DNA of 64,000 nucleotides from an uncultured Nitrospira sp. Lineage in GTDB: Bacteria > Nitrospirota > Nitrospiria > Nitrospirales > Nitrospiraceae. Where the stretch lies: assembly GCA_902500775.1 (NCBI GenBank), contig CABVRZ010000014.1, positions 1-64,000 on the forward strand. The letters are read 5' to 3'. The notes below the pieces were generated by a model, which ran no database searches, was not told where the DNA came from, and saw only the letters and a list, made by a program, of their open reading frames with translations. Below, one piece after another: positions 10,437-27,091 of the stretch. Position 1 is the first letter of the stretch; each line of letters starts with the position of its first letter. Position numbers and translations under genes: made by a program.

Positions 10437-12674
10437 CTAGCGGGTCACGGAGGGATCGCGCAGATAGTGTACTGGGGCCATTGTCTCAAGAGCCCAGACC
10501 AGAATCTTTCGGTTGAGAGTCGACACGATTAAGTGCTTCCCGTCGCTCGTCCAATGGAGATGGGACGGAGTCCTGACATGAAAGGTCTTTCGTTTGGCTT
10601 TGGCGGACAGATCCCAGACGGAAATGTATTCTCCCACGCGAGTCGCGGCCCATCGCTGTTGTGGATCGACGGCCATGGCTGTCCCTAACCCTATGGGCGG
10701 TCCGTGATCAACCTCCGTATCTCGATTGGTGAAGGTATCCAAGCCTGCCCAGACGATGTTGTGTTTGGGGTCCCAAATCGCAAGCCTCATGGATTTTGGA
10801 TCACGGGTTCGCGTGGTCGTCCAGATAAGGGGCTGGTTCCATCCCAGACTGGACCAGACTTCCGGAATGCCGGACGGTTTCTCTACCTCGCGCCAGGTCT
10901 CACTGTCCCACACGACACGACCGACTCGCGAGATTGTCATGAGCCAGGCCGCCCCATCCAAGAAGCTCAACCCTTCGACGATCTCCCCTCGCCCAACTCC
11001 CTTTTTTGCACAGGCCTTTCCAGCACAAACCGGTGACCGGCTGCTATGCACTAGCTCTTTCACAACTGTTCGGGAAACGAGATCCACGACCGACACGTGT
11101 GGCTGTTCCCCTGCAATGACCAGCACGCGGTTGCCTGGAAGAAATTGCAACGCATTGATCTGTCCTTGTCCACTTGCATACGGGGGAAATTCTCGCCAGC
11201 TATGCGTCTCCCACAAACGAATCTCCCCTTGGTTGGTTCCCACCGCCAGGATAACGCCATCGGAGCTGAACGCGAGAGCGCTGGCCAGAACAGGCAGTTT
11301 CAGTTGACGCAGGAGCATGCCCTGTCCCGGATCCCATATTTTCAGAAACCCGTCATCACTGGCCGTCACAAGCTGGTTTGTCGTGGGGGAAGTTGCCACT
11401 GCCCGTACCGCCATTCCATGAACAAACGCCGGCGCCGCAATCAGTGTAGGAGATGCCACCCGCACCGAGTCTTGCGGGGCCGTTCGTTTTGCCAACACCT
11501 TCGCCTGTGGCTGGCCTGGATCCAATACCAGCTCCGGAGAACGTGACGAGACATCCCAGACCGACACCTTCCCATCCACCTCGGGGTTCAGGCCTCCCTC
11601 CAACACCATAACCACCTTGGCCCCGCTCGGCGACCATTTCAGCAATGCCACGCGGGTGCCCACTTGACGACAATCATGTCCACACAGATCCGGCAACCTC
11701 GTTCCCGTCGACAAGTCCCAGATCTGGAGCGTGGAGAGATGGTCCGATTGTCCGACTAGATAATCCCCCTCGGCTGAGATATCGACAGTATGCAGATGGC
11801 TCGGTACCCGCACGCCCCGTTCGTGGTCTTCGTAGAGAAACTCCGTCAAGGCCACCTGCTTGCCTGTGCTCACATCGATCACGGCATAGCTCGATTCGCC
11901 GTTCTCGGCGACCAGCCGCTGGCTGTCACGCGAGAAGAATTGACGTGTCGCCTGCCCTGCTGTCCCCTCCGCGTTCGACAACGTCGCTCGAGCAGAAGCC
12001 GTTGCTCCGTTCGTATCGATAAAGAGCATGGCATGACCAACGCTCACCGCCAGGGTCGTGCTGTTCGGTGCGAAGAGCAGCTCTCGCACGGTGCCATCTA
12101 CCACCACATCACGGATGGCCGTCCCTCGCAAATCGTACAGATGGATCGTATGGCCTTGCGCGATCGCCAATTGCTTGGCATCGGGAGATGCTGCAACCGA
12201 CGACAGGTCCTTTTTCTGATCTAGCGCAATATGCTTCAGCGGTATAAGTTTCTTGCCCAGCTGCCAGATAGAGACGGCCTCATTCCCATGACGAAGAATC
12301 AGCTGATCGGTCTCACTCGAGTAGGCAAGTAACTGATAGAGTTCGCGCGATTCTGATGGGATCGTGGCCACAGCCGTACGATTCTTCCAGTCGTAGATAG
12401 TGACGCTGTGCCCCACACATAACACCCATCCGTCTTGCTTCATCACGGCTATCTGCTGACAGAGAAGGTCCGGAATCTTGGCCACAAGCGCTTTGGTCTC
12501 CAGATCCCACAGCGCTAACTCCTCCATCTGGATCAGGAGAAGCCGGCCATCATCAGAGAAGGCAGCAGAAGTTCTCGAGACGGCACCCCTGACGTCTTGC
12601 GGGAATAACATGACGAAGAATAGGAGAGTCGCAAAGGCAATATTCGTCATGGTGTATCTTGTCCGCCCCTCCAT
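10437..12674 (-). CDS. Secreted WD40-like beta-propeller protein
   Basis: This protein of about 745 residues has a signal peptide (MTNIAFATLLFFVML ... VRGA) and repeated WD40-like blades, for example ASDDGFLKIWDPGQG, TNQGEIRLWETHSW, VGEYISVWDLSAK and LNRKILVWALE. There are probably two propellers. Such proteins act as binding scaffolds, and no catalytic motif is visible. The frame stays open to 12884, but a start at 12674 (AAGGG 7 nt upstream) or 12650 (GGAGGGG upstream) is preferred because it places the signal peptide at the N-terminus. It lies about 60 bp downstream of the DUF4124 gene and is probably cotranscribed with it. Confidence 0.75.
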   Translation of the reverse strand: MEGRTRYTMTNIAFATLLFFVMLFPQDVRGAVSRTSAAFSDDGRLLLIQMEELALWDLETKALVAKIPDLLCQQIAVMKQDGWVLCVGHSVTIYDWKNRTAVATIPSESRELYQLLAYSSETDQLILRHGNEAVSIWQLGKKLIPLKHIALDQKKDLSSVAASPDAKQLAIAQGHTIHLYDLRGTAIRDVVVDGTVRELLFAPNSTTLAVSVGHAMLFIDTNGATASARATLSNAEGTAGQATRQFFSRDSQRLVAENGESSYAVIDVSTGKQVALTEFLYEDHERGVRVPSHLHTVDISAEGDYLVGQSDHLSTLQIWDLSTGTRLPDLCGHDCRQVGTRVALLKWSPSGAKVVMVLEGGLNPEVDGKVSVWDVSSRSPELVLDPGQPQAKVLAKRTAPQDSVRVASPTLIAAPAFVHGMAVRAVATSPTTNQLVTASDDGFLKIWDPGQGMLLRQLKLPVLASALAFSSDGVILAVGTNQGEIRLWETHSWREFPPYASGQGQINALQFLPGNRVLVIAGEQPHVSVVDLVSRTVVKELVHSSRSPVCAGKACAKKGVGRGEIVEGLSFLDGAAWLMTISRVGRVVWDSETWREVEKPSGIPEVWSSLGWNQPLIWTTTRTRDPKSMRLAIWDPKHNIVWAGLDTFTNRDTEVDHGPPIGLGTAMAVDPQQRWAATRVGEYISVWDLSAKAKRKTFHVRTPSHLHWTSDGKHLIVSTLNRKILVWALETMAPVHYLRDPSVTR

Positions 12675-12735
12675 CATCATGCCCTTATTCTGCGATGTGA
12701 TCACGCGAGCACGAAAGTCCCGACACTCACCCCTC

Positions 12736-13266
12736 TCACTTACGTGCTGAACCTGATGCAGGCAGGTCTTCGATCTTGGTCCCTGCCTTTGAGCCTCCCT
12801 TTGAGTCCAGCAACACGTCCACAAAGTGCTCAAGACCCTGCTTGTCCTTCCACGATTGAACTGGCGCTCTTGCGTCTCCCTCACTGCTCTCGAAGACCTG
12901 CCACGGGCTGGTTATCATGGCCTGGAATGGATTCAACCCTTCAATGGTCAATTGAAGCGGGAGTTCCTCAGCAGTCGGAGACGTGACGCTTTGCATCGAA
13001 AGCGGGCGAGCCTCCGCACGGGGTTGCTCGGGTGCAACCGGCCGAACCCTTGTTTTCTTCGGCAATACGGAGTGCGGATCCGGCACCACGGTGAGAGCAG
13101 ATTTCTTGTGCGTACCAGCAGGCGGTGCATCCGTAATATGGAGATGCCCCTGTTCATCAGTCCATTTATAGAGCTCTGCCCCGCTGACGATCGGAAAGCA
13201 GAGAAGTCCGGCCGCTAGGCTCAGGATCAATGTGTTCAGGGTGAAGGATGACCGCATGGTCCACAT
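12736..13266 (-). CDS. DUF4124-domain secreted protein
   Basis: This 176-residue protein has an N-terminal signal peptide (TLNTLILSLAAGLLCF ... VSGA) directly followed by the DUF4124 signature ELYKWTDEQGHLHITDAPP. A Pro-rich middle and a second, similar short region (VQSWKDKQGLEHFVDV) follow. DUF4124 proteins are envelope proteins of unknown role. The start could be the first Met or the Met three codons later, and neither has a strong ribosome-binding site. It is probably the first gene of an operon with the propeller protein downstream. Confidence 0.8.
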   Translation of the reverse strand: MWTMRSSFTLNTLILSLAAGLLCFPIVSGAELYKWTDEQGHLHITDAPPAGTHKKSALTVVPDPHSVLPKKTRVRPVAPEQPRAEARPLSMQSVTSPTAEELPLQLTIEGLNPFQAMITSPWQVFESSEGDARAPVQSWKDKQGLEHFVDVLLDSKGGSKAGTKIEDLPASGSARK

Positions 13267-14847: not shown

Positions 14848-15222
14848 ATGAGCCATTTGCACACTCGATCTAACTGGATAGCCCAACTGGTCACAATATT
14901 CACCTGCCTGTTGACTGTCTGGCTATCCACATCCTGTAACGCAACAGAGCGAGGAACCTTAGAACCATCTGCAAAATCTCCCATACTTCGATTCGCCCCC
15001 CAGGAAGTCTTGATCAAATTCAAGAACGGAGTATCACAAGAGCGAATCGCGTTCATCCTAAAGAATAACCAAATGAAGGTGATAGCGGAAATCCAAAGAG
15101 GCCATCTCTACCACGTCAGAGTCTTGAATAATCGATCGGTTGAATCCGCAATCACCCAACTCACTTCATATCAGGAGATCGAGTATGCAGAGCCCAACTA
15201 TCGGTACGAAACGGAAAAGTAG
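14848..15222 (+). CDS. Propeptide-only lipoprotein (putative subtilase inhibitor), copy 1
   Basis: This 124-residue lipoprotein has a signal peptide and lipobox (VWLSTSC). The rest is a subtilase-type N-terminal propeptide domain: EVLIKFKNGVSQERIAFIL ... VIAEIQRGHLYHVRV ... VESAITQLTSYQEIEYAEPNYRYE. The same EYAEPNY ending occurs in the prodomain of the protease encoded next. Isolated propeptides of this fold inhibit or chaperone subtilisins, and that role here is inferred. ATG 14848 has GGAGAG upstream. The 3' end overlaps the protease gene by 38 bp. Confidence 0.75.
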   Translation: MSHLHTRSNWIAQLVTIFTCLLTVWLSTSCNATERGTLEPSAKSPILRFAPQEVLIKFKNGVSQERIAFILKNNQMKVIAEIQRGHLYHVRVLNNRSVESAITQLTSYQEIEYAEPNYRYETEK

Positions 15223-17527
15223 CATCATAACAATTGCGTTTTGGTGGGGCGGCACAATCCTAGGACTGACAACGTTGGGGGTTGCCTTGTCAGCGCTTAT
15301 GCCTGGAGATCGCTTGGTTCATGCCAAGCAGAAACAAACGGCCGGCGGAATGACTTCGCTCTCATCGGATCTGCGCCATCCAAACAAGTATGTACCGGGA
15401 GAGGTGCTCGTCAAGTTCAAGGATGAGGCATCCCCGTTGGGAATCAAGTCCATCAATGTAGACGGTGAGAACCATGAAATCAAAGCGTTCTCCGTGAATG
15501 GTAGAGCCATCCACCAGTACAAGCTGGATGGAACCTTATCGGTCGATGAGGCAGTCGCGAAGTACCGAAGTAATCCGGCCGTTGAGTATGCTGAACCGAA
15601 CTACCTTTACTGGACAAAAGCCATTCCCAGTGATGCCAAGTTTGAGACGCTCTGGGGTCTCCATAACATCGGTCAATCTGTGAACGGAACCGCGGGAACA
15701 GCAGATGCCGACATTGATGCGCCGGAAGCCTGGGACATCAGCACCGGAAGTTCCGATGTCGTTATCGCCGTTATTGACTCGGGTATCGCCTACGACCATC
15801 CGGATCTCGCACCCAATATCTGGACAAACCAGGGGGAGACTGCGGGGGATGGCATTGACAACGATGGGAATGGATTCGTCGATGATGTCCATGGATGGGA
15901 TTTTCTCATGAATGACAGTGACCCGATGGATCCCATTGATCTTAATCCTGGTGGTAACCCAGGACATGGTACTCATGTCGCAGGAATCATCGCAGGAGCT
16001 GGAAACAACGGAACCGGGATCACCGGCGTCATGTGGAAGGCAAGACTGATGGCGCTTAAAGCCGGAGGAGTGAATGGATCTCTATCCACAGCCGCCATTG
16101 TCAGTGCGATCCGCTATGGCATCGCTAATGGTGCACGTGTGATCAACATGAGCTTTACCGCACCCGAATGTAGTCAGGCCTTGTACGATGCGGTGAGCGC
16201 CGCGAATGCAGCCGGCGTGATTCTTGTCGCCGCAGCGGGGAATGAAGAATCGGATAATGATAACGTACCTAGCTTCCCCGCAAATTTTGGTTCCCCCTCA
16301 GTGTGTGATGGACAACAGAAGGCAGCGCTGACAAACGTGATCGCGGTGGCGGCCACAGACCAGAATGACCAATTGATAAACCTCTCTAATTTCGGATCCA
16401 CAACAGTCCATGTGGCTGCGCCGGGAGTCAGGATCAACAGCACAAAGCCCACTTCGAGTGTTACCCATGTGCTCCTGCACAAGTTCGATTCGAATCCAAC
16501 CGGACTCGGGTATACGTTCGGAGGAATCAATAACGCCTGGGGATTCACGAATTCTACATCATTCAGCCAAGCAAACAGTCTCACCGACAGCCCAAGCGGC
16601 AACTATCTGAACGGCACCGATTCCTTTGCAGCCGGACCAGTGTTCACGACTCAAGGACAGCGGGGATGTCGCCTTGACAGCCGCATTCGCCTGCAAACCG
16701 AGCAAGACATTGACGGAGTTCTAACCGAAGTATCACGAGACAGCGGAACCAACTGGGAGCCAATTCGTACAATCACTGGAAATACCAACGACCAATTTGA
16801 GCCCTTTACCTTGGGAGACATCGCGGATGGTATGGCCAATTCTCAATTTCGATTCCGATTCGAATCGGATGAGCGCCAGGTCTTCGACGGTGTCTATTTA
16901 GACGATGTCCGCATCGCCTGTGTTGCGGGTCAGCCTTCGGATGCAACGGACTATCAGTTTCTTCTTGGCACCTCGATGGCTGCTCCGCATGTCACGGGAC
17001 TCGCGGGTCTTTTACTCTCGGTTAATCCCCACCTGACCGTATCAGAACTCAGGAACGCAATCCTCAACACAGTCGATCGGAAGCCTTCTTTAAGTGGAAA
17101 GGTTTTGGCCGGCGGGCGAATCAATGCCCGAGCCGCGTTGGCCAGCGTAGTGACAACATTTTCCGTTACCGTCCACAAATCGGGGCTCGGCAGCGGTACC
17201 ATTACATCAAGCGCTGCCGGGATCGACTGTGGAGCGACATGCAAAGGCCAGTTTCCCCAAGGTAGCACTGTAACCCTTGCCGCCGCTCCCACCCCTGGAT
17301 CAACCTTTGCCGGGTGGAGTGGAGATTGTGTAGGAACTGGTCTCTGCTCGCTTGCCCAGAATGCCACTGTCACCGCAACCTTCACCATTGCACCAGCCCT
17401 TCCGGCCCCTATCGAGGGAGGAGGGGGAGGCTGCACACTCGCTCCTGGCACAACTGGAGACATATTGCTACCAGCCTTACTACTCATGTCTCTGGTTGCC
17501 TTGTTGTGGAGAGGCAGACGTAGATGA
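15185..17527 (+). CDS. Subtilisin-like S8 protease with C-terminal sorting tail, copy 1
   Basis: This 780-residue protein has an N-terminal membrane/signal segment and then a propeptide (VPGEVLVKFKDE ... EYAEPNYLY). The catalytic domain has Asp198 (VIAVIDSGIAYDHPDL), His261 (PGHGTHVAGI) and Ser597 (GTSMAAPHVTG). An extra module of about 170 residues, beta-rich, sits between His and Ser. A Cys-containing bacterial repeat domain follows (GIDCGATCKGQF ... FAGWSGDC). The tail is GGGGGCTLAPG, a hydrophobic helix and RGRRR, like MYXO-CTERM-type sorting signals. ATG 15185 (AGGAGA upstream) is used because the paralogue shares it. The gene is coupled to the flanking genes by overlaps on both sides. 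Confidence 0.88.
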   Translation: MQSPTIGTKRKSSIITIAFWWGGTILGLTTLGVALSALMPGDRLVHAKQKQTAGGMTSLSSDLRHPNKYVPGEVLVKFKDEASPLGIKSINVDGENHEIKAFSVNGRAIHQYKLDGTLSVDEAVAKYRSNPAVEYAEPNYLYWTKAIPSDAKFETLWGLHNIGQSVNGTAGTADADIDAPEAWDISTGSSDVVIAVIDSGIAYDHPDLAPNIWTNQGETAGDGIDNDGNGFVDDVHGWDFLMNDSDPMDPIDLNPGGNPGHGTHVAGIIAGAGNNGTGITGVMWKARLMALKAGGVNGSLSTAAIVSAIRYGIANGARVINMSFTAPECSQALYDAVSAANAAGVILVAAAGNEESDNDNVPSFPANFGSPSVCDGQQKAALTNVIAVAATDQNDQLINLSNFGSTTVHVAAPGVRINSTKPTSSVTHVLLHKFDSNPTGLGYTFGGINNAWGFTNSTSFSQANSLTDSPSGNYLNGTDSFAAGPVFTTQGQRGCRLDSRIRLQTEQDIDGVLTEVSRDSGTNWEPIRTITGNTNDQFEPFTLGDIADGMANSQFRFRFESDERQVFDGVYLDDVRIACVAGQPSDATDYQFLLGTSMAAPHVTGLAGLLLSVNPHLTVSELRNAILNTVDRKPSLSGKVLAGGRINARAALASVVTTFSVTVHKSGLGSGTITSSAAGIDCGATCKGQFPQGSTVTLAAAPTPGSTFAGWSGDCVGTGLCSLAQNATVTATFTIAPALPAPIEGGGGGCTLAPGTTGDILLPALLLMSLVALLWRGRRR

Positions 17528-18069
17528 AATCTAGCTTTAGAACGCGAGAACAGCCACAACACCGGAGATTGCGCTCTGGTTTCATGGTAGGAGTGCAGAA
17601 TGCCTCATCTGGTGTACTGCCTAGACTACACCGCGCGGTATCGGTCACACCGCTATTAGGTCTTCAATTCAATCGCCCCTTTCATCGAGATCCCGCATTC
17701 CTCTTGTTGTTAGCTCTTGGTCCGATTGCATCGTGTTCCATGATAGGGCTTTTCGTGTTTCAACCACTGGTTTGGTCTGCCATATGGTCTGCAGCCTTTT
17801 TCTCTGTTGCGCTTTGGCAGCTTGTATTGGAAGAATTGCTGTTTTGCGGCATCATCCAGGAGTATACGCGGCAATCAGTGGTGATGCCGAAGACTTGGAA
17901 TGGACTATCTCTCTCCAACTTTCTGACATCTCTTTTATTTACCTTGGCTCATCTGGCCACCCATTCCATCTCCCGGTCCCTACTTGTATTCGTTCCTTCC
18001 CTCTGTTTTGGATTCGTACGAGATCGCTTTGGATCAGCATGTCCCTCCATCGCTCCACACGCCTTCTAG
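17524..18069 (+). pseudogene. CPBP intramembrane protease, damaged copy 1
   Basis: This 181-residue multi-helix membrane protein belongs to the CPBP (CAAX protease/bacteriocin-processing) family. It starts at ATG 17524, overlapping the protease stop by ATGA. Compared with the intact paralogue at 21451, the EExxxR motif reads EELLFC, so Arg108 is Cys. The HAFYN motif ends HAF followed by a TAG where the paralogue has TAT (Tyr182), which removes the motif Asn and about 20 residues. Both changes hit residues conserved in active members, so the protein is probably inactive. Confidence 0.75.
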
Positions 18070-18281
18070 AACACCGACTATTTTTTCTCGTCAGGGACGT
18101 CGCCCTATCCAACCCGTCAAGATGCTTCACCATTTGACTCCCCTAGGTAATCGAGCCCAATATGGATTCAAGAAAGAAAGTGATACCACAGTGCCAACTA
18201 AGATTCTGAAAGAGTGTGGTTGGCTAGCCTCACAGTTGATTCCTGTCATCGTAGGATTGCACCCAATCGCTGCAGAATGCT

Positions 18282-18383
18282 CACTTCGTGCTCGGCTTCG
18301 GCCAAGCCTTTCTCTCAAGCTCGACGAACCCAGCGAGATGGGTGCATCAAAAAGTGGAGCGAGTAGCATTGGGGAAAGGCTGA
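18282..18383 (+). pseudogene. Remnant of the oxidase-like gene 3' end
   Basis: This segment aligns with the last 100 or so bases of the gene at 13707-14225. It shares CTTCGTGCTCGGCTTCGGCC-type sequence, the following CAAGCCTTTCTCTC, a diverged middle and the final GGCTGATCATC including the TGA. Nothing of the 5' part remains. It marks the upstream edge of the second copy of the duplicated module. The surrounding gap from 18070 to 18753 shows no other gene. Confidence 0.75.
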
Positions 18384-18753
18384 TCATCCGGAACAGCGAT
18401 ACTCGCCAGCATGGAGAGCCCCACTCATATCTCGCCAGACACGGCCACTAATCCAGTGGATGTCTGGCCACCAGGGAAACTGCCATTACGCGACTCGTAC
18501 AAGTCTAAAAACAGTGTGCTGGCACACACTCGTTCTTCCCGAATTCTAGGTCGAGCAGAACCTCTTCATCACAAACCAGTACATAGACGTGACATTCCGC
18601 AATCCCAGCACTTTCTACTTCAACGAGTGATCCATCACGCTATGCCAGATTTCCCCCTCGGAAGAGGGATACAGGAATCAACATCGATCCTATTACATAT
18701 AACGCCTGCCTGGCTGAACCAGCGTGATCGACCTGCATGACACAGAGAATACG

Positions 18754-19143
18754 ATGTGGCATTTTCCCAATTTCTTTCATCGTGTCGCACAACTTGTCAC
18801 AATCACGATGTATGTGTCGGTTGTGTGGCTTTCCACATCCTGTAACGCAGCTGACCACTCTGTGACAACGCCGCATACTATCGATCCATCAGCGAAATTC
18901 TCTCCCCCTCAATTCACCCCGAATGAAGTGTTGGTCAAGTTCAAAGCCGGAGTTTCTCCAGAGCGGATTGCGTCCATCCTGAACGACGCCCGGGCCGACG
19001 TGATCACTGAACTCCAGCAGGGACGTCTTTATCACGTCCGTATGTTGGGTGATCGGTCGGTTGAGTCCGTGATAACCCGGCTCACTTCATATGGAGAGGT
19101 CGAGTATGCAGAGCCCAACTACCGACACGAAATGCAGAAGTAG
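18754..19143 (+). CDS. Propeptide-only lipoprotein (putative subtilase inhibitor), copy 2
   Basis: This 129-residue paralogue of the protein at 14848-15222 has the same WLSTSC lipobox and the same propeptide fold (NEVLVKFKAGVSPERIASIL ... VEYAEPNYRHE). No protease domain is attached. The ATG at 18754 is preferred over GTG 18724 because it places the signal peptide at the N-terminus, though the ribosome-binding site is weak. The end overlaps the protease gene start at 19106 by 38 bp, exactly as in copy 1. A role in inhibiting or folding the adjacent protease is inferred. Confidence 0.75.
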   Translation: MWHFPNFFHRVAQLVTITMYVSVVWLSTSCNAADHSVTTPHTIDPSAKFSPPQFTPNEVLVKFKAGVSPERIASILNDARADVITELQQGRLYHVRMLGDRSVESVITRLTSYGEVEYAEPNYRHEMQK

Positions 19144-21454
19144 CATGATGAGAATCGTGCTCTCTTGGGTCGCGGCGATCGTCGGCTTGACAACAGTCGT
19201 GCTCACATTGTCGGGCCTCATGCCTGGAGATCGTTTCGTCTACGCGAAGCAGAAACAGACCCCCGGTGGCACAGTCGGGCTATCAGGGGACGCGCGTCGT
19301 CGAGCCCAGTATGTTCTCGGAGAGGTGCTCGTCAAGTTCAAGGATGAGGCGTCTTCAGCGGGAATCACGTCGCTGAATGTCGAGCTGGGTGCCAAAGAAC
19401 TCAGAGCGGTATCGGCACACGCTGGAGTGATTCATCAGTACAAGTTGGAGGGTGCCTTATCGGTGGACGATGCAGTCGTGAAGTACCAAAGCAATCCCGC
19501 CGTTGAATACGCGGAGCCCAACTATCTGTACCAGCTGCACGCCATTCCCAATGATGCCCAGTTCGGCACATTATGGGGCCTCCATAACACCGGTCAAGCT
19601 GTGAATGAAACGGCGGGGAAGGCCGACGCCGACATTGATGCCCCTGAAGCCTGGGACATCAGCACGGGAAGCCCAAACGTGATCATTGCCGTCATTGACA
19701 CGGGTGTGGCCTACGACCACCCGGATCTGGCACCCAATATCTGGACGAATCCGGGAGAGATCGCGGGGGATGGCCTCGATAATGATGAGAATGGATTCGT
19801 CGACGATGTGCATGGGTGGGATTTTCTCATGAACGATAACGACCCCATGGACCCTGTCGATCTCAATCCTGGAGGGAACCCAGGACATGGCACTCATGTC
19901 GCGGGAATCATCGCGGGAGCAGGAAACAACGAAGCTGGCGTCACGGGGGTCATGTGGACTGCCAGACTAATGGCACTGAAAGCCGGAGGAGTGAATCGAT
20001 CTCTATCCACCACTGCCCTTGTCAATGCGATCCGCTACGCCATCACGAAAGGTGCACGCGTCATCAATGGCAGCTTTGGTGGATCTGGGTGTAGCCTCGC
20101 CCTCTATGATGTCCTGAGTGCCGCGAATGAGGCAGGGATCTTATTTGTTGCAGCGGCGGGCAACGGTGGCGACGATGGGATCGGCGATGACAATGATAGT
20201 ACCCCAAGTTTTCCTTCAAACTTCAGCGCGTCTTCGGTGTGCAATGGCCATCAAAGGGCCGCGCTGACAAACGTGATTGCGGTCGCTGCGACAGACCAAC
20301 ATGATCAATTGGCGACCTTCTCGAATTTCGGGCCCGCGACCGTACAAGTAGCCGCACCGGGAGTCAGAATCAACAGCACAACCCCCACATCGAACGTGAC
20401 AACTGTCCTGTTTCACAACTTTGATTCCAACCCGACCGGACTTGGATACGGCTTTGGAGGAGCCAATAATACCTGGGGATTCACCAATTCCACGTCATTC
20501 AGCCAACCAAATAGCCTAACCGACAGTCCGACCGGAAGTTATCAGAACCGCACCGAGTCCTTCACTGTAGGACCGGTGTTCTCTACCGAGGGTCAGCGGG
20601 GCTGCCGATTAGACAGTCGTGTCCGCTATCAAACCGAGCTTGAGCTCGACACAGTCTTTGCAGATGTATCAAAGAACAGCGGGACCAGTTGGCAAACCAG
20701 CCGGGGAATTTCTGGAGACAGCAACGATCAATTTCATTCCATTACCTGGGGAGACATCGCAGATGGCACAGCGGGTTCACGATTCCGGTTCCGATTCGTA
20801 TCGGATGAGAGTTTGACCTTTGATGGAGCGTATCTGGACGACGTCCGCATCGCCTGTGTGGCAGGTCCGCCGTCACGCACCACGGATTACAAATTTCTTC
20901 AGGGCACGTCGATGGCCACTCCCCATGTGGTAGGACTCGCTGGATTATTGCTCTCGGTCAATCCTAGCCTCTCAGTCTCCGAACTCAGGAGCGCCATCCT
21001 GAGCACTGTGGATCGTAACGCGTCTCTGAGTGCAAAGGTGTTGAGCGGTGGACGTATCAATGCCAGAGCCGCGTTGAACAGCGTGGTGGCAAATTCCACC
21101 ATGACTGTTCACAAAGCCGGTGCTGGCACGGGAACGGTTACGTCCGATCCTGCCGGAATTGACTGCCGAGCAACATGCAATGGGAAGTTCCCCTTGGGGA
21201 GCACAGTCCATCTCACCGCAACACCCGATCCGGGATCTACATTTGTAGGGTGGAGCGGAGATTGCTCTGGAACTGGTCTCTGCTCGATTGCCCCGAATGC
21301 AACTGTCACTGCCACCTTCAATATTGCCCCGCCTCCCACCGAGAGCGGCGGTGGAGGCTGCACACTCGCTCCCGGCGCACCTGGTGACATACTACTGCCC
21401 AGCATGCTGCTGCTGTCTCTGATGCTCGTGCTGTGGAGAACAAGACGCCGATGA
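19106..21454 (+). CDS. Subtilisin-like S8 protease with C-terminal sorting tail, copy 2
   Basis: This 782-residue protein is a close paralogue of the protease at 15185-17527 along its whole length. Catalytic residues are Asp198 (VIAVIDTGVAYDHPDL), His261 (PGHGTHVAGI) and Ser602 (GTSMATPHVVG). The inserted beta-rich module, the Cys-containing repeat domain and the tail (SGGGGCTLAPG, helix, RTRRR) are all present. ATG 19106 follows GGAGAGG at good spacing. It should be exported, activated by propeptide removal and anchored or released through the C-terminal tail. The substrate is unknown. Its stop overlaps the next gene by ATGA. Confidence 0.88.
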   Translation: MQSPTTDTKCRSSMMRIVLSWVAAIVGLTTVVLTLSGLMPGDRFVYAKQKQTPGGTVGLSGDARRRAQYVLGEVLVKFKDEASSAGITSLNVELGAKELRAVSAHAGVIHQYKLEGALSVDDAVVKYQSNPAVEYAEPNYLYQLHAIPNDAQFGTLWGLHNTGQAVNETAGKADADIDAPEAWDISTGSPNVIIAVIDTGVAYDHPDLAPNIWTNPGEIAGDGLDNDENGFVDDVHGWDFLMNDNDPMDPVDLNPGGNPGHGTHVAGIIAGAGNNEAGVTGVMWTARLMALKAGGVNRSLSTTALVNAIRYAITKGARVINGSFGGSGCSLALYDVLSAANEAGILFVAAAGNGGDDGIGDDNDSTPSFPSNFSASSVCNGHQRAALTNVIAVAATDQHDQLATFSNFGPATVQVAAPGVRINSTTPTSNVTTVLFHNFDSNPTGLGYGFGGANNTWGFTNSTSFSQPNSLTDSPTGSYQNRTESFTVGPVFSTEGQRGCRLDSRVRYQTELELDTVFADVSKNSGTSWQTSRGISGDSNDQFHSITWGDIADGTAGSRFRFRFVSDESLTFDGAYLDDVRIACVAGPPSRTTDYKFLQGTSMATPHVVGLAGLLLSVNPSLSVSELRSAILSTVDRNASLSAKVLSGGRINARAALNSVVANSTMTVHKAGAGTGTVTSDPAGIDCRATCNGKFPLGSTVHLTATPDPGSTFVGWSGDCSGTGLCSIAPNATVTATFNIAPPPTESGGGGCTLAPGAPGDILLPSMLLLSLMLVLWRTRRR

Positions 21455-22050
21455 AGCTCGATTTGAGAGCGCGAGAATTGTCGTCGGAGCAGATATCGCA
21501 CACAGACCTCATCGTTGAGGCATCGGGCGTTTCCCCTCATGAGCGCTTCATGCTCCGCCTCTCCGCACACGTCACGGCACTACTGGGACTTCACAACCAT
21601 CGTCCCTTTCATCGGGACCCTGTATTCCTCTCGTTGTTCGTGTGTGGTCCGTTCGTATGGTGTGCTATGACCGAGGGCTTTCAATTCCAGCCTCTCTCTC
21701 AGCATGTCCTTTGGTCAGTAGCATTTCTTTCCATCGCGTTGTGGCAACCTCTGCTGGAAGAATTGCTGTTCCGTGGCATCATCCAAGGGCATATGCTGCA
21801 ACCCCTAACGAGATGGAAACCATGGATCGGACTATCCATGCCCAACCTACTGACGTCGCTCTTCTTCTCATTAGCCCATCTGGCCGGACACTCCATCACG
21901 TGGTCGTTACTCGTGTTCGTTCCCTCTCTCTGCTTCGGCTTCGTGCGAGATCGCTTTGGATCGGTGTATCCTTCCATCATTCTGCATGCTTTCTATAATG
22001 TGGGGCACTTTCTTTTTGTCGATGGTGTCATGCTTTTCAATTCCCGTTAA
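21451..22050 (+). CDS. CPBP (CAAX-type) intramembrane glutamic protease, intact copy
   Basis: This 199-residue polytopic membrane protein carries all the motifs of active CPBP proteases: EELLFR (Glu103, Glu104, Arg108), SLAHLAGH (His143) and HAFYN (His179, Asn183). The ATG at 21451 overlaps the protease stop (ATGA), so translation is coupled. Members of this family act as sortase-like processing enzymes for MYXO-CTERM and related C-terminal tags (myxosortases). The adjacent proteases carry such a tail, so this protein is the likely processing partner of both copies. That pairing is inferred. Confidence 0.85.
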   Translation: MKLDLRARELSSEQISHTDLIVEASGVSPHERFMLRLSAHVTALLGLHNHRPFHRDPVFLSLFVCGPFVWCAMTEGFQFQPLSQHVLWSVAFLSIALWQPLLEELLFRGIIQGHMLQPLTRWKPWIGLSMPNLLTSLFFSLAHLAGHSITWSLLVFVPSLCFGFVRDRFGSVYPSIILHAFYNVGHFLFVDGVMLFNSR

Positions 22051-23010: not shown

Positions 23011-24705
23011 CTACAGCGTCACCGTGAACCCGCGATTCTGAAGAACGGTTCGAATGATGTTCACATCCGAGGTTGAATAGCCGAGGCCGATGGCCGCAGT
23101 CACGAGCGCATTGGCCGCCTGATTAAAAGAGGTATCGTCGGTCAGCAAAAAATGATGCTGCAGAATGACCATGTCGGCTTTTGATGCCCCAATCGCCCCA
23201 CGAATCTGCCACAAGGCGGCTGACCACATTTCTCCGTCGTCGTGGACCTCGCCGACGACTGACTCTGGGTAATGCTTGGTCCCGTCTAACCGACGAAGAC
23301 AGGGAGGGCTTGTCGATGAGTAGGAAGTCGCATCCCATTCGGCAAGACAAGCATCTTGGAACCCGCCGCTGAGCTGAGCCCCAAGCGTGCCGGCCCAATA
23401 GTCTCCGAATCCCTCTCCAATCGAATCCGCTTCCAACGTCGTTCCATAGCCCGGAACCTGGTTATCGAGGATTGAATGGCCATACTCATGCCACACGACA
23501 TCGGCATCCTCCGCGTCGTCAACGCCACCAGTCCCGTAAGTGATGCGCTTCGTGGACGATTGATAGAAGGAATTATCTTTTTTATAGCGATCGACGCTGA
23601 ACACCTGTTGCCGGTTATTCACGGTGAGCAAGCCGAGGGATTGGATGTACCGTTGCGCATAATCGAGATAGTAATAGGCCATGGTCTCACTGAAACCATC
23701 AGAGCTGCGATCGAAGCCAAACGTCTGGATTGCTGAGGAGACTCGCCGCTTCGAGGCACTACTGGAGGCATAGGTGCCATCGAGGAAGCCGCTGCCATCT
23801 AATCCTGGCAAGGTCACCAGACGATAGGCAGCCTGGGGAACAGCGGAGGCCGCGTCTTTCTGGTCGCTCAAGCTGTTGGTCTGCGTGGCCACGACTGCAT
23901 TCACCTGAAAAACTTGTCCTGTCCCATTGAGATACCGATTAAGATCCCTCGCAGACTTCAATGCCTTGCCCGTCTGTGCCTGCACAAATACCTGCCAGGT
24001 AGGCCCAGCCGTGTGGATCATCACTTCCCATGCAACCACCGGAGTACCCGTCTCACCATAGATAACCAGTTTGGCTGATGGCCGCGGGATATCCTCTTCT
24101 CCATCTTTTTCACTGAGGCCACGTGGAATGTGCCCTTGGGCTGCCTGGATCGCCTGCTCAGTGTCCAACGATGGAACCCTCATCGGGAGCTTTTCAGTTG
24201 GCACGGAGGTGTTTGTCAGACCGACGACATGACCATGGCGGTCAAAATGAATCTTCAGTTCTCCCCTATACACCGGGATCCCCTCAGCCATTTGCGCGAA
24301 TGAATAGACGTGCCCCATCGGGGTGGTTCTGTCGCTTTCCAGAACAAAACCAGACAAGGCTGCATCAAGTTTGAGCAGCGCGGCCTGGGAGGAAAGAAAC
24401 TGCCTTGCTGAGGTTTCTGAAACTTCCATTGGAACCGAGAGGATGCCATAGATCGCTTTTGGTGTCCCCCAAAGATGACTCCATGTAACCGAAATAGGAC
24501 CTGACGATTTCCCAGCCAAAGCAACCCACAATGGCAGCAGATCAGGGTCAGGCTTCCCGACAAGTTGCGGCTCAGCCTGGCCACCGTTGCGCTTCAGGTG
24601 CACCTCATCCGGCGGGGCAGCTTGCACCATCCCTGCACTAGTCACGATCACGGTAACCGTCATGAATAAGAGCCTGTGCATGAAGCAACGCAGCGCGATG
24701 TACAT
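23011..24705 (-). CDS. Thermolysin-like secreted metallopeptidase (M4/M36 type)
   Basis: This 564-residue protein has a signal peptide (LLFMTVTVIVTSAGMVQA), a propeptide region of FTP/PepSY type (VYRGELKIHFDRHGHVVGLTN) and a zinc peptidase domain. The zinc motif is WHEYGH (His406, Glu407, His410), with the third ligand Glu431 and Asp435 in GEGFGDYW, the gluzincin pattern. ATG 24705 was chosen because GAGGAG is 7 nt upstream and it puts the signal peptide first. A longer frame to 24777 is open but unsupported. It is probably a secreted scavenging or processing protease. Confidence 0.85.
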   Translation of the reverse strand: MYIALRCFMHRLLFMTVTVIVTSAGMVQAAPPDEVHLKRNGGQAEPQLVGKPDPDLLPLWVALAGKSSGPISVTWSHLWGTPKAIYGILSVPMEVSETSARQFLSSQAALLKLDAALSGFVLESDRTTPMGHVYSFAQMAEGIPVYRGELKIHFDRHGHVVGLTNTSVPTEKLPMRVPSLDTEQAIQAAQGHIPRGLSEKDGEEDIPRPSAKLVIYGETGTPVVAWEVMIHTAGPTWQVFVQAQTGKALKSARDLNRYLNGTGQVFQVNAVVATQTNSLSDQKDAASAVPQAAYRLVTLPGLDGSGFLDGTYASSSASKRRVSSAIQTFGFDRSSDGFSETMAYYYLDYAQRYIQSLGLLTVNNRQQVFSVDRYKKDNSFYQSSTKRITYGTGGVDDAEDADVVWHEYGHSILDNQVPGYGTTLEADSIGEGFGDYWAGTLGAQLSGGFQDACLAEWDATSYSSTSPPCLRRLDGTKHYPESVVGEVHDDGEMWSAALWQIRGAIGASKADMVILQHHFLLTDDTSFNQAANALVTAAIGLGYSTSDVNIIRTVLQNRGFTVTL

Positions 24706-24818
24706 GGGATGCTCCTCTATTACGATAGATAGCCGATCCGGAAGGGAATCTGACCTCTCACTGCGATTCATGAACACATGAGGAATGAAGCAACATCACG
24801 AGGTGAATCGACGGATCG

Positions 24819-25360: not shown

Positions 25361-25474
25361 GTATTTGAGGATACCCTATTCAGGGAGGAAAAAGCATCAG
25401 AGCTCCTCTCAAGTCACTGATTGTTTGGGCATTCTCTTGCAAGTGATCGGACTTTTTCGTTAAGGTACAGGACG

Positions 25475-27091
25475 ATGGACGGGGCTCGTTCGCGCCAAAT
25501 TATCTTCGCCTGCGCGAGTGGATTATTCCTACCCCTCTGCTTCCCCAAATTCGACCTGGGTTTGCTGGCCTGGGTTGTCCTCATCCCTCTTCACCTCGCG
25601 CTCGACCAATGTTCCAAGGTGCGAGCGTTTTGGATCGGTTGGCTCAGCGGACTGATCGGGTTTACCGGCATCATGGCCTGGGTCGTCACCGCCATGACCA
25701 CCTATGGCAAGGTTCCAGAACTGGTGAGTTACGCAATCCTCTTATTACTGACTGCCTACCTGGGCCTCTACACCGGCCTCTACAGTCTGGCCGTTGTCTG
25801 GTTGCGCGACCTCATCCCACGCTATGGAATTTTCTTTGCACCATGCTTCTGGGTCGCCCTTGAGTTATTCCGTACCTACCTCCTTTCAGGCCTGCCCTGG
25901 TGTCTTCTGGGTTATTCTCAATACCGCGAATTAGAATTGATTCAGGTCGCAGACCATACAGGCGTGTACGGCATTTCGTTCCTCATTGTCCTGGTGAATC
26001 TGGCTCTGGCAGAACTGCTCTTGTGGATCATGCCCTTTTTCAGGGGATTTCACCCGGTCAAACTTCCCTGGGAACTCCTCACCACCGCAGCCTCCTGTAT
26101 GGTGCTCTCGTGGGTCTACAGCTCAGCGGTCTTGAGCGATCGCAACACACGAGATCCGAACACCTCCATTACTATTGGAGTCGTCCAGCCTAACATCGAT
26201 CAAGCCGTGAAGTGGGACAGGGCCTTCCGTGATGAAACCATGCAGCGTTTCGATCGGCTGACCGCTGAACTGGGGACCGGCACCGATTTGGTCGTGTGGC
26301 CGGAAGCCGCGACCCCGTTCATCTTCGAGCGTGAACAGGAGTATCAGGGGCAACTGATCGCATGGGCGGAACGGGCCCAGGCGCCAATTCTCATCGGGAG
26401 TCCAGCCTTGCGGTTTTATCCGGATCGCCGCCCGTATCTTTTGAACAGCGCCTATCTGCTCGGAAGAGACGGCACGCTGCTCGGGCGATACGATAAATAT
26501 CATCTCGTCCCCTTTGGAGAATACATTCCTCTCAAATCCTCGTTGTTATTCTTTCTCGATAAGCTGGTGGAAGGAATCGGCGATTTCGAACCAGGCCCTG
26601 GACCGACCACGCTTTCCTTCATCCCGAAGTCATGGGACCAAGAAGGTTCCCTTGGTTCACGATCCGTGAAGTTCGGTGTGGCAATTTGTTACGAAGTGAT
26701 TTTCCCGGATTTAGTCCGTCAGTTTGCCGCAAACGGCGCCGAGTTTTTGGTGACCATCACCAACGACGGATGGTTCGGACCGTCCTCAGCCCCTGCCCAA
26801 CACTTTGCCATGGTCGTCTTTCGTTCCGTGGAGAATCATGTCGCCTTTGCCCGGGCCGCCAACACAGGCATCTCAGGGTTCATCGACCCTTTCGGACAGA
26901 TCATCCACGCGACGCCTCTCTTCACGGAACAGGCCTCCCACGCCGTGATCCCGACCAGACACATCCCTACCTTCTACAGTTATTACGGCGATGTGTTTGC
27001 CTACGCCTGTGTTATACTCTGCGCACTTTTGTGCCTAATTGGATATTTCCGCAGCAAAGAACCAGTCATGACGGCAGTCACGCCGGCGTGA
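25475..27091 (+). CDS. lnt: Apolipoprotein N-acyltransferase
   Basis: This inner-membrane enzyme of about 538 residues adds the third acyl chain to lipoproteins. The N-terminal third has several transmembrane helices. The C-N hydrolase domain follows, with the catalytic triad regions VVWPEAATPF (Glu), GRYDKYHLVPFGEYIPL (Lys) and GVAICYEVIFPDL (Cys). The length matches the family (about 510-550). The start at 25475 is favoured because AGG lies upstream and the protein then begins just before the first helix. The frame is open to 25421. It heads a forward cluster that includes LolC/E- and LolD-type genes, a sensible grouping for lipoprotein biogenesis. Confidence 0.93.
   Translation: MDGARSRQIIFACASGLFLPLCFPKFDLGLLAWVVLIPLHLALDQCSKVRAFWIGWLSGLIGFTGIMAWVVTAMTTYGKVPELVSYAILLLLTAYLGLYTGLYSLAVVWLRDLIPRYGIFFAPCFWVALELFRTYLLSGLPWCLLGYSQYRELELIQVADHTGVYGISFLIVLVNLALAELLLWIMPFFRGFHPVKLPWELLTTAASCMVLSWVYSSAVLSDRNTRDPNTSITIGVVQPNIDQAVKWDRAFRDETMQRFDRLTAELGTGTDLVVWPEAATPFIFEREQEYQGQLIAWAERAQAPILIGSPALRFYPDRRPYLLNSAYLLGRDGTLLGRYDKYHLVPFGEYIPLKSSLLFFLDKLVEGIGDFEPGPGPTTLSFIPKSWDQEGSLGSRSVKFGVAICYEVIFPDLVRQFAANGAEFLVTITNDGWFGPSSAPAQHFAMVVFRSVENHVAFARAANTGISGFIDPFGQIIHATPLFTEQASHAVIPTRHIPTFYSYYGDVFAYACVILCALLCLIGYFRSKEPVMTAVTPA

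Follow-up and report, generated by a model that had tools for sequence, protein, structure and literature searches.

Tandem JDVT-CTERM/MrtJ-type cassettes with a subtilase cargo and a candidate prodomain lipoprotein in Nitrospira

JDVT-CTERM and MrtJ are regarded as a known enzyme–target pair (PMC11980579), and the neighbourhood in which MrtJ accompanies a single target has already been published. The tail of this system (NF033191) carries an invariant Cys, a transmembrane (TM) helix and an Arg cluster. Beside the tagged gene lies one for a CPBP-family protein of the MrtJ type, described in NF033192 as the 'JDVT-CTERM system glutamic-type intramembrane protease'. For MrtX, a close relative of MrtJ, Cys-dependent cleavage and surface sorting have been demonstrated by experiment (PMC11980579). 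MYXO-CTERM and its enzymes MrtX, MrtC and MrtP share a related CPBP core and a Cys-containing tripartite tail with the genes studied here and provide the mechanistic model (PMC11980579); in Myxococcus, however, dozens of cargo proteins are handled by a single enzyme. Exosortase/PEP-CTERM likewise combines a tripartite C-terminal signal with an intramembrane enzyme, but that enzyme belongs to an unrelated family with another signature motif. Separately, a stand-alone propeptide-like protein encoded beside subtilase genes, SUB1-ProM of Plasmodium, is a proven inhibitor (PMC6993865).

The surface proteins of Nitrospira, which are important and hard-to-culture nitrifiers, are little known. Here we describe two cassettes of the JDVT-CTERM/MrtJ type from a Nitrospira genome. 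The analysis adds the distribution of the system in this genus, evidence on trans action and a conserved prodomain lipoprotein; what looks new is the spread through Nitrospira and the conserved, overlapping gene for what appears to be a lipid-anchored second copy of the prodomain, the protease's own folding and inhibitor domain.

Tandem cassettes and their sorting-system assignment

The window, meaning the whole 64,000-base stretch analysed, comprises bases 1–64000 of contig 14 in a draft genome of 4.53 Mb. Among named relatives, Nitrospira metagenome-assembled genomes come closest to the locus. Two three-gene cassettes lie in tandem on the forward strand, at 14848–18069 and 18754–22050 (whole span 14848–22050), each in the order prodomain lipoprotein, S8 protease with a GGGGC-TLAPG/TM/Arg end, and CPBP protease. 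In the first cassette, prodomain lipoprotein 1 (14848–15222, +; 124 aa; PF22148, 42.3 bits against a cut-off of 21) consists of a signal helix, a lipobox-like LSTSC, a linker and a fervidolysin-type subtilase prodomain with an EYAEPNY end. S8 protease 1 (15185–17527, +; 780 aa; PF00082, 183.6 bits; PF22148, 39.1 bits; PF18998, 39.3 bits) comprises a signal peptide, its own prodomain, a subtilase domain, an InlB-like repeat and a JDVT-CTERM tail at 17417–17521 (+; NF033191), in which GGGGCTLAPG is followed by a TM helix and WRGRRR. Downstream lies the MrtJ-type CPBP gene 1 (17524–18069, +; NF033192, 69 bits against a cut-off of 75), which is truncated and probably non-functional. The second cassette consists of prodomain lipoprotein 2 (18754–19143, +; 129 aa; PF22148, 50.5 bits against 21), S8 protease 2 (19106–21454, +; 782 aa; PF00082, 188.8 bits; PF22148, 47.2 bits; PF18998, 42.2 bits), which has the architecture of protease 1 and a JDVT-CTERM tail at 21344–21448 (+; NF033191), and an intact CPBP intramembrane protease, MrtJ (21451–22050, +; 199 aa; NF033192, 96.9 bits against 75).

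Between the cassettes, the proteases share 71%, the lipoproteins 59% and the CPBPs 54% identity. In both, the S8 gene starts within the lipoprotein gene, overlapping it by 38 bases, and the CPBP start overlaps the S8 stop as ATGA. An initial annotation, which spanned 15185–22050 and left the lipoprotein genes partly outside, had already reported the ATGA overlap and the GGGGC-TLAPG, hydrophobic-helix and Arg-cluster ends of the two proteases; we find both features in both cassettes.

The tails were compared with curated NCBIfam profiles, for which the cut-offs are 27 bits for JDVT-CTERM (NF033191) and 75 bits for the MrtJ equivalog (NF033192). On whole proteins, NF033191 matched over its full length at the extreme C-terminus, with 39.3 bits for tail 1 and 28.5 bits for tail 2, the latter barely above the cut-off; the genome search gave 44.1 and 34.8 bits. 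An invariant Cys followed by a TM helix and a basic cluster is common to both window tails and to related tails. The second CPBP exceeded the MrtJ cut-off, so that both the tail type and the CPBP assignment of the initial annotation proved right when the profile comparison it had suggested was carried out. Membership of MYXO-CTERM was rejected (15.2 bits against a cut-off of 20), as were assignments to MrtX (46.1 against 180), MrtC (60.3 against 195) and MrtP (56 against 250). In our own scan, a CPBP gene adjoining a GGC-TM-Arg tail was also present in Gammaproteobacteria, Rhodocyclaceae and Sulfurovum.

Since the tails and the second CPBP lie over curated cut-offs and CPBP-beside-tail neighbourhoods occur elsewhere, the sorting system is one already known, and the proposal of a candidate new system has to be given up in favour of a named one. 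Judged from their sequences, the window cassettes almost certainly belong to the JDVT-CTERM/MrtJ system. The Nitrospira form differs from it in having a subtilase cargo and an extra prodomain lipoprotein gene, in its tandem copies and, in several genomes, in unlinked cargo.

A scan of the 4.53 Mb genome for the DNA pattern of the tail, as suggested in the initial annotation, gave exactly two matches, the two window copies (a reversed control pattern, 0 matches). A further JDVT-like tail lies on contig 45. The same genome contains three exosortase-type genes over cut-off (G000:C36:15113-15817, C5:145314-145997 and C5:119752-120450), and two or more unrelated systems for C-terminal sorting thus stand side by side in it.

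The two CPBP genes differ in condition. CPBP 2 keeps E103, E104, R108, H143, H179 and N183 of the motifs EExxxR, H and HxxxN; its top fold match is Rce1 (4cad), although this match is weak. In CPBP 1, a TAG codon replaces Tyr182 directly after HAF, so the Asn of HxxxN is not translated, and owing to this truncation the protein falls under the MrtJ cut-off. Of the 30 residues that do not vary among 18 relatives, it has lost six, the motif Arg among them (P100L, R108C, G113E, W151R, Tyr182 to stop and G185D). CPBP 1 is therefore probably dead, and only CPBP 2 of the window looks functional. The pairwise omega of CPBP 1 is 0.27, compared with medians of 0.28–0.39 for the others; dN/dS was accordingly rejected as proof of decay, and the unraised value suggests that the loss was recent.

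Distribution and subtypes in Nitrospira

In a sample of 79 Nitrospira genomes, in which tail and MrtJ were counted over the curated cut-offs, MrtJ was present in 35 and the JDVT tail in 33, all of them among the 35. This co-occurrence (33/33) has a Fisher p of ~3e-20, uncorrected for phylogeny. The nesting of tail genomes within MrtJ genomes is the pattern predicted by dependence of a substrate on its enzyme, again uncorrected for shared ancestry. Only two genomes (G075 and G078) have MrtJ without a tail; both were rejected as counter-examples, as MrtJ is N-truncated in each and in one the EE motif has become EP. Elsewhere in the family and order, no genome searched reached the MrtJ cut-off. 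A single-sequence scan of named genomes found no MrtJ relatives; an alignment-based scan did find them, and a scan of viral contigs gave one distant CPBP match.

Translational coupling of protease and MrtJ genes is also conserved in arrangement: among the 33 A-type S8 genes of the retrieved loci, 29 keep ATGA, as do both window copies (31/35). The exceptions are TTGA at two loci (L090 and L121), an MrtJ remnant at L125 and a disrupted S8 gene at L102. The Trp-Arg codons of the tail supply a GGAG-like Shine-Dalgarno sequence ~12 bases upstream of the MrtJ ATG. The functional link between tail and CPBP put forward in the initial annotation is thus borne out by the genus, in which tail homologues and conserved CPBP adjacency were both found.

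Four cassette subtypes were distinguished. Subtype A, that of the window, contains the lipoprotein, an S8 protease with the tail CTLAPGATGD, and MrtJ. In subtype B, MrtJ-B follows the gene for a PKD-domain protein of the glucose/sorbosone dehydrogenase type, whose tail reads, for example, CTLNRSGTGD. Subtype C has a longer S8 protease with four InlB-like repeats and the tail CTIAPAGSND, without a lipoprotein, and subtype D an S8 protease with PKD-type domains. JDVT-tagged dehydrogenase-type/PKD proteins with an MrtJ of their own form a second cargo class, seen at L105, L110, L112 and L115 (G037, G001, G004 and G012).

The pairing of MrtJ with two kinds of cargo bears on what the CPBP protein does. 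CPBP proteins generally have several roles, and this one could in principle be an immunity or maturation factor for the protease, with the tail as a plain membrane anchor. We consider this very improbable, because the CPBP exceeds the curated equivalog cut-off for MrtJ and because members of its family are also paired with cargo that is not a protease, for instance the JDVT-tailed sugar dehydrogenase, which needs no protease immunity. Processing of the tail by MrtJ is the reading we follow below.

MrtJ without an adjacent substrate

States like that of CPBP 1 occur in other genomes: in G010 the upstream MrtJ is cut to 85 aa, and in G037 both cassette MrtJ genes are broken and a B-type MrtJ is intact nearby. 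The genome of the window itself holds a third MrtJ, of B-type and with intact motifs, on contig 45 (G000:C45:25195-26000; L004, L014); it adjoins a decayed dehydrogenase-type substrate gene, of which a short ORF still carries the JDVT-like tail.

A tagged protease without an intact adjacent MrtJ was found in six genomes, each of which has another MrtJ. In four of them (G012, G018, G031 and G041), an A-type lipoprotein and S8 gene stand without an adjoining MrtJ or remnant; in the other two (G016:C31 and G004:C362), only MrtJ remnants lie beside the tagged protease. The other MrtJ of G018, G031 and G041 is a lone B-type gene without a tagged neighbour, with intact motifs and pairwise dN/dS of 0.3–0.6. 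Uncoupled proteases in genomes with MrtJ elsewhere indicate that MrtJ is probably trans-acting and not strictly dedicated, and from this gene content we regard trans action as probable. The survey thereby offers natural evidence for an MrtJ that would serve several substrates in trans.

Were the pairs strictly dedicated instead, each MrtJ would cut only the tail of the adjoining gene, and the uncoupled proteases would be unprocessed leftovers. Adjacency and ATGA coupling are indeed conserved, and the wording of the tail follows the subtype (CTLAPGATGD in A, CTLNRSGTGD in B and CTIAPAGSND in C). However, protease 1 of the window has retained its whole tail although the adjoining MrtJ is broken, an A-type protease has only a B-type MrtJ available in G012, G018, G031, G041 and G004, and the lone B-type genes retain their motifs under the dN/dS values given above; we therefore consider strict dedication unlikely. 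The 'dedicated pair' of the initial annotation was too strong a term for a window in which one CPBP looks dead and a genus in which six genomes have an uncoupled tagged protease. On the simplest reading, adjacency helps co-expression and recognition does not need it; against this reading, the adjacency kept in most genomes could reflect a cis preference. For the sorting part of our best explanation, trans action included, we put the probability at roughly 0.7.

The candidate prodomain lipoprotein and a possible mechanism

The lipoprotein was found in 29 genomes, 27 of which have the JDVT tail. The two without it (G027 and G059) were rejected as counter-examples, because in each the contig breaks off within the S8 gene. 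JDVT genomes without the lipoprotein are of subtypes C or D or have a cut contig (G020). As it is found only with the S8 protease of subtype A, the lipoprotein belongs to that subtype. Its lipobox-like Cys30 is invariant in 29/29 copies, as is Ser29, both following a hydrophobic helix, although the lipobox is atypical in having Ser at −3. The residue after the Cys is Asp in most copies and Asn in the window copies; by the E. coli rule, which may not be that of Nitrospira, Asp at +2 holds lipoproteins in the inner membrane.

In the AlphaFold model of the lipoprotein, a signal helix and a disordered linker precede a small, high-confidence alpha/beta domain, with pLDDT >90 over the prodomain of lipoprotein 2. 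In a fold search it came closest to the prodomains found in proprotein convertase, fervidolysin and subtilisin, with modest E-values of ~0.007–0.013; a sequence profile search for a solved relative found none. Outside the overlap, dN/dS of the prodomain is 0.25, indicating purifying selection.

These data speak to whether the upstream ORF has a function of its own. It might instead be a by-stander, left over from duplication of a protease N-terminus and kept only for the S8 ribosome-binding site and start codon, as conservation of its C-terminus is partly forced by the overlap and the protease has its own prodomain. We hold this to be quite improbable: the ORF is conserved over its full length with Cys30 invariant in 29 copies, its prodomain is under purifying selection outside the overlap, and subtypes C and D make S8 proteases without it. 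A selected protein product is the reading we prefer. Since the protease carries its own prodomain, the simplest view is that a second one is unneeded for folding. The Plasmodium inhibitor, which like the lipoprotein is encoded by a separate propeptide-like gene adjoining subtilase genes, makes a role as inhibitor or chaperone plausible. In contrast to it, the Nitrospira protein is bacterial, apparently lipid-anchored and encoded by a gene overlapping the protease gene, and inhibition is putative here. We give roughly even odds that the lipoprotein is an apparently membrane-anchored trans inhibitor or chaperone of the protease. A literature search of incomplete coverage found no comparable bacterial lipoprotein; the initial view that its combination with this system looks undescribed stands, and the gene is conserved.

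For the route as a whole we infer lipidation, cleavage, surface location, inhibition and trans action. Lipoprotein, protease and MrtJ would be translated from the overlapping genes, and the signal peptide would take the protease across the inner membrane, where the C-terminal helix and Arg cluster would hold it. The invariant tail Cys would be lipidated by some enzyme and the tail removed by MrtJ, after which sorting would bring the lipid-anchored protease to the cell surface. The lipoprotein prodomain, with its anchor on the same membrane face, may bind the catalytic cleft in trans, as a brake or a folding helper. MrtJ would act in trans on the JDVT tails of the cell, one copy serving several cargo proteins. 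More speculatively, the anchored prodomain might silence the protease at the inner membrane until MrtJ sorting moves the protease off the brake. We think this doubtful; if true, C-terminal sorting would double as zymogen activation, and we know of no described sorting system that does so. A search for GspD, along the type II secretion route, yielded nothing beyond partial secretin matches that fell short of the cut-off. With one enzyme, one cargo and one prodomain lipoprotein, the cassettes form small, self-contained units that could be rebuilt in E. coli.

Three neighbouring genes of the window were also recorded. An apolipoprotein N-acyltransferase gene (Lnt; 25421–27091, +), which acts in lipoprotein maturation, lies ~3.4 kb downstream of MrtJ, a proximity that is probably coincidence. 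Near the S8 cassettes, on the opposite strand, a gene at 23011–24777 (−) encodes a secreted-type metallopeptidase that has an FTP propeptide motif and matches M36 weakly. The product of the gene at 10437–12884 (−) is a long WD40-repeat protein, inside which lies a hydrophobic stretch resembling a signal.
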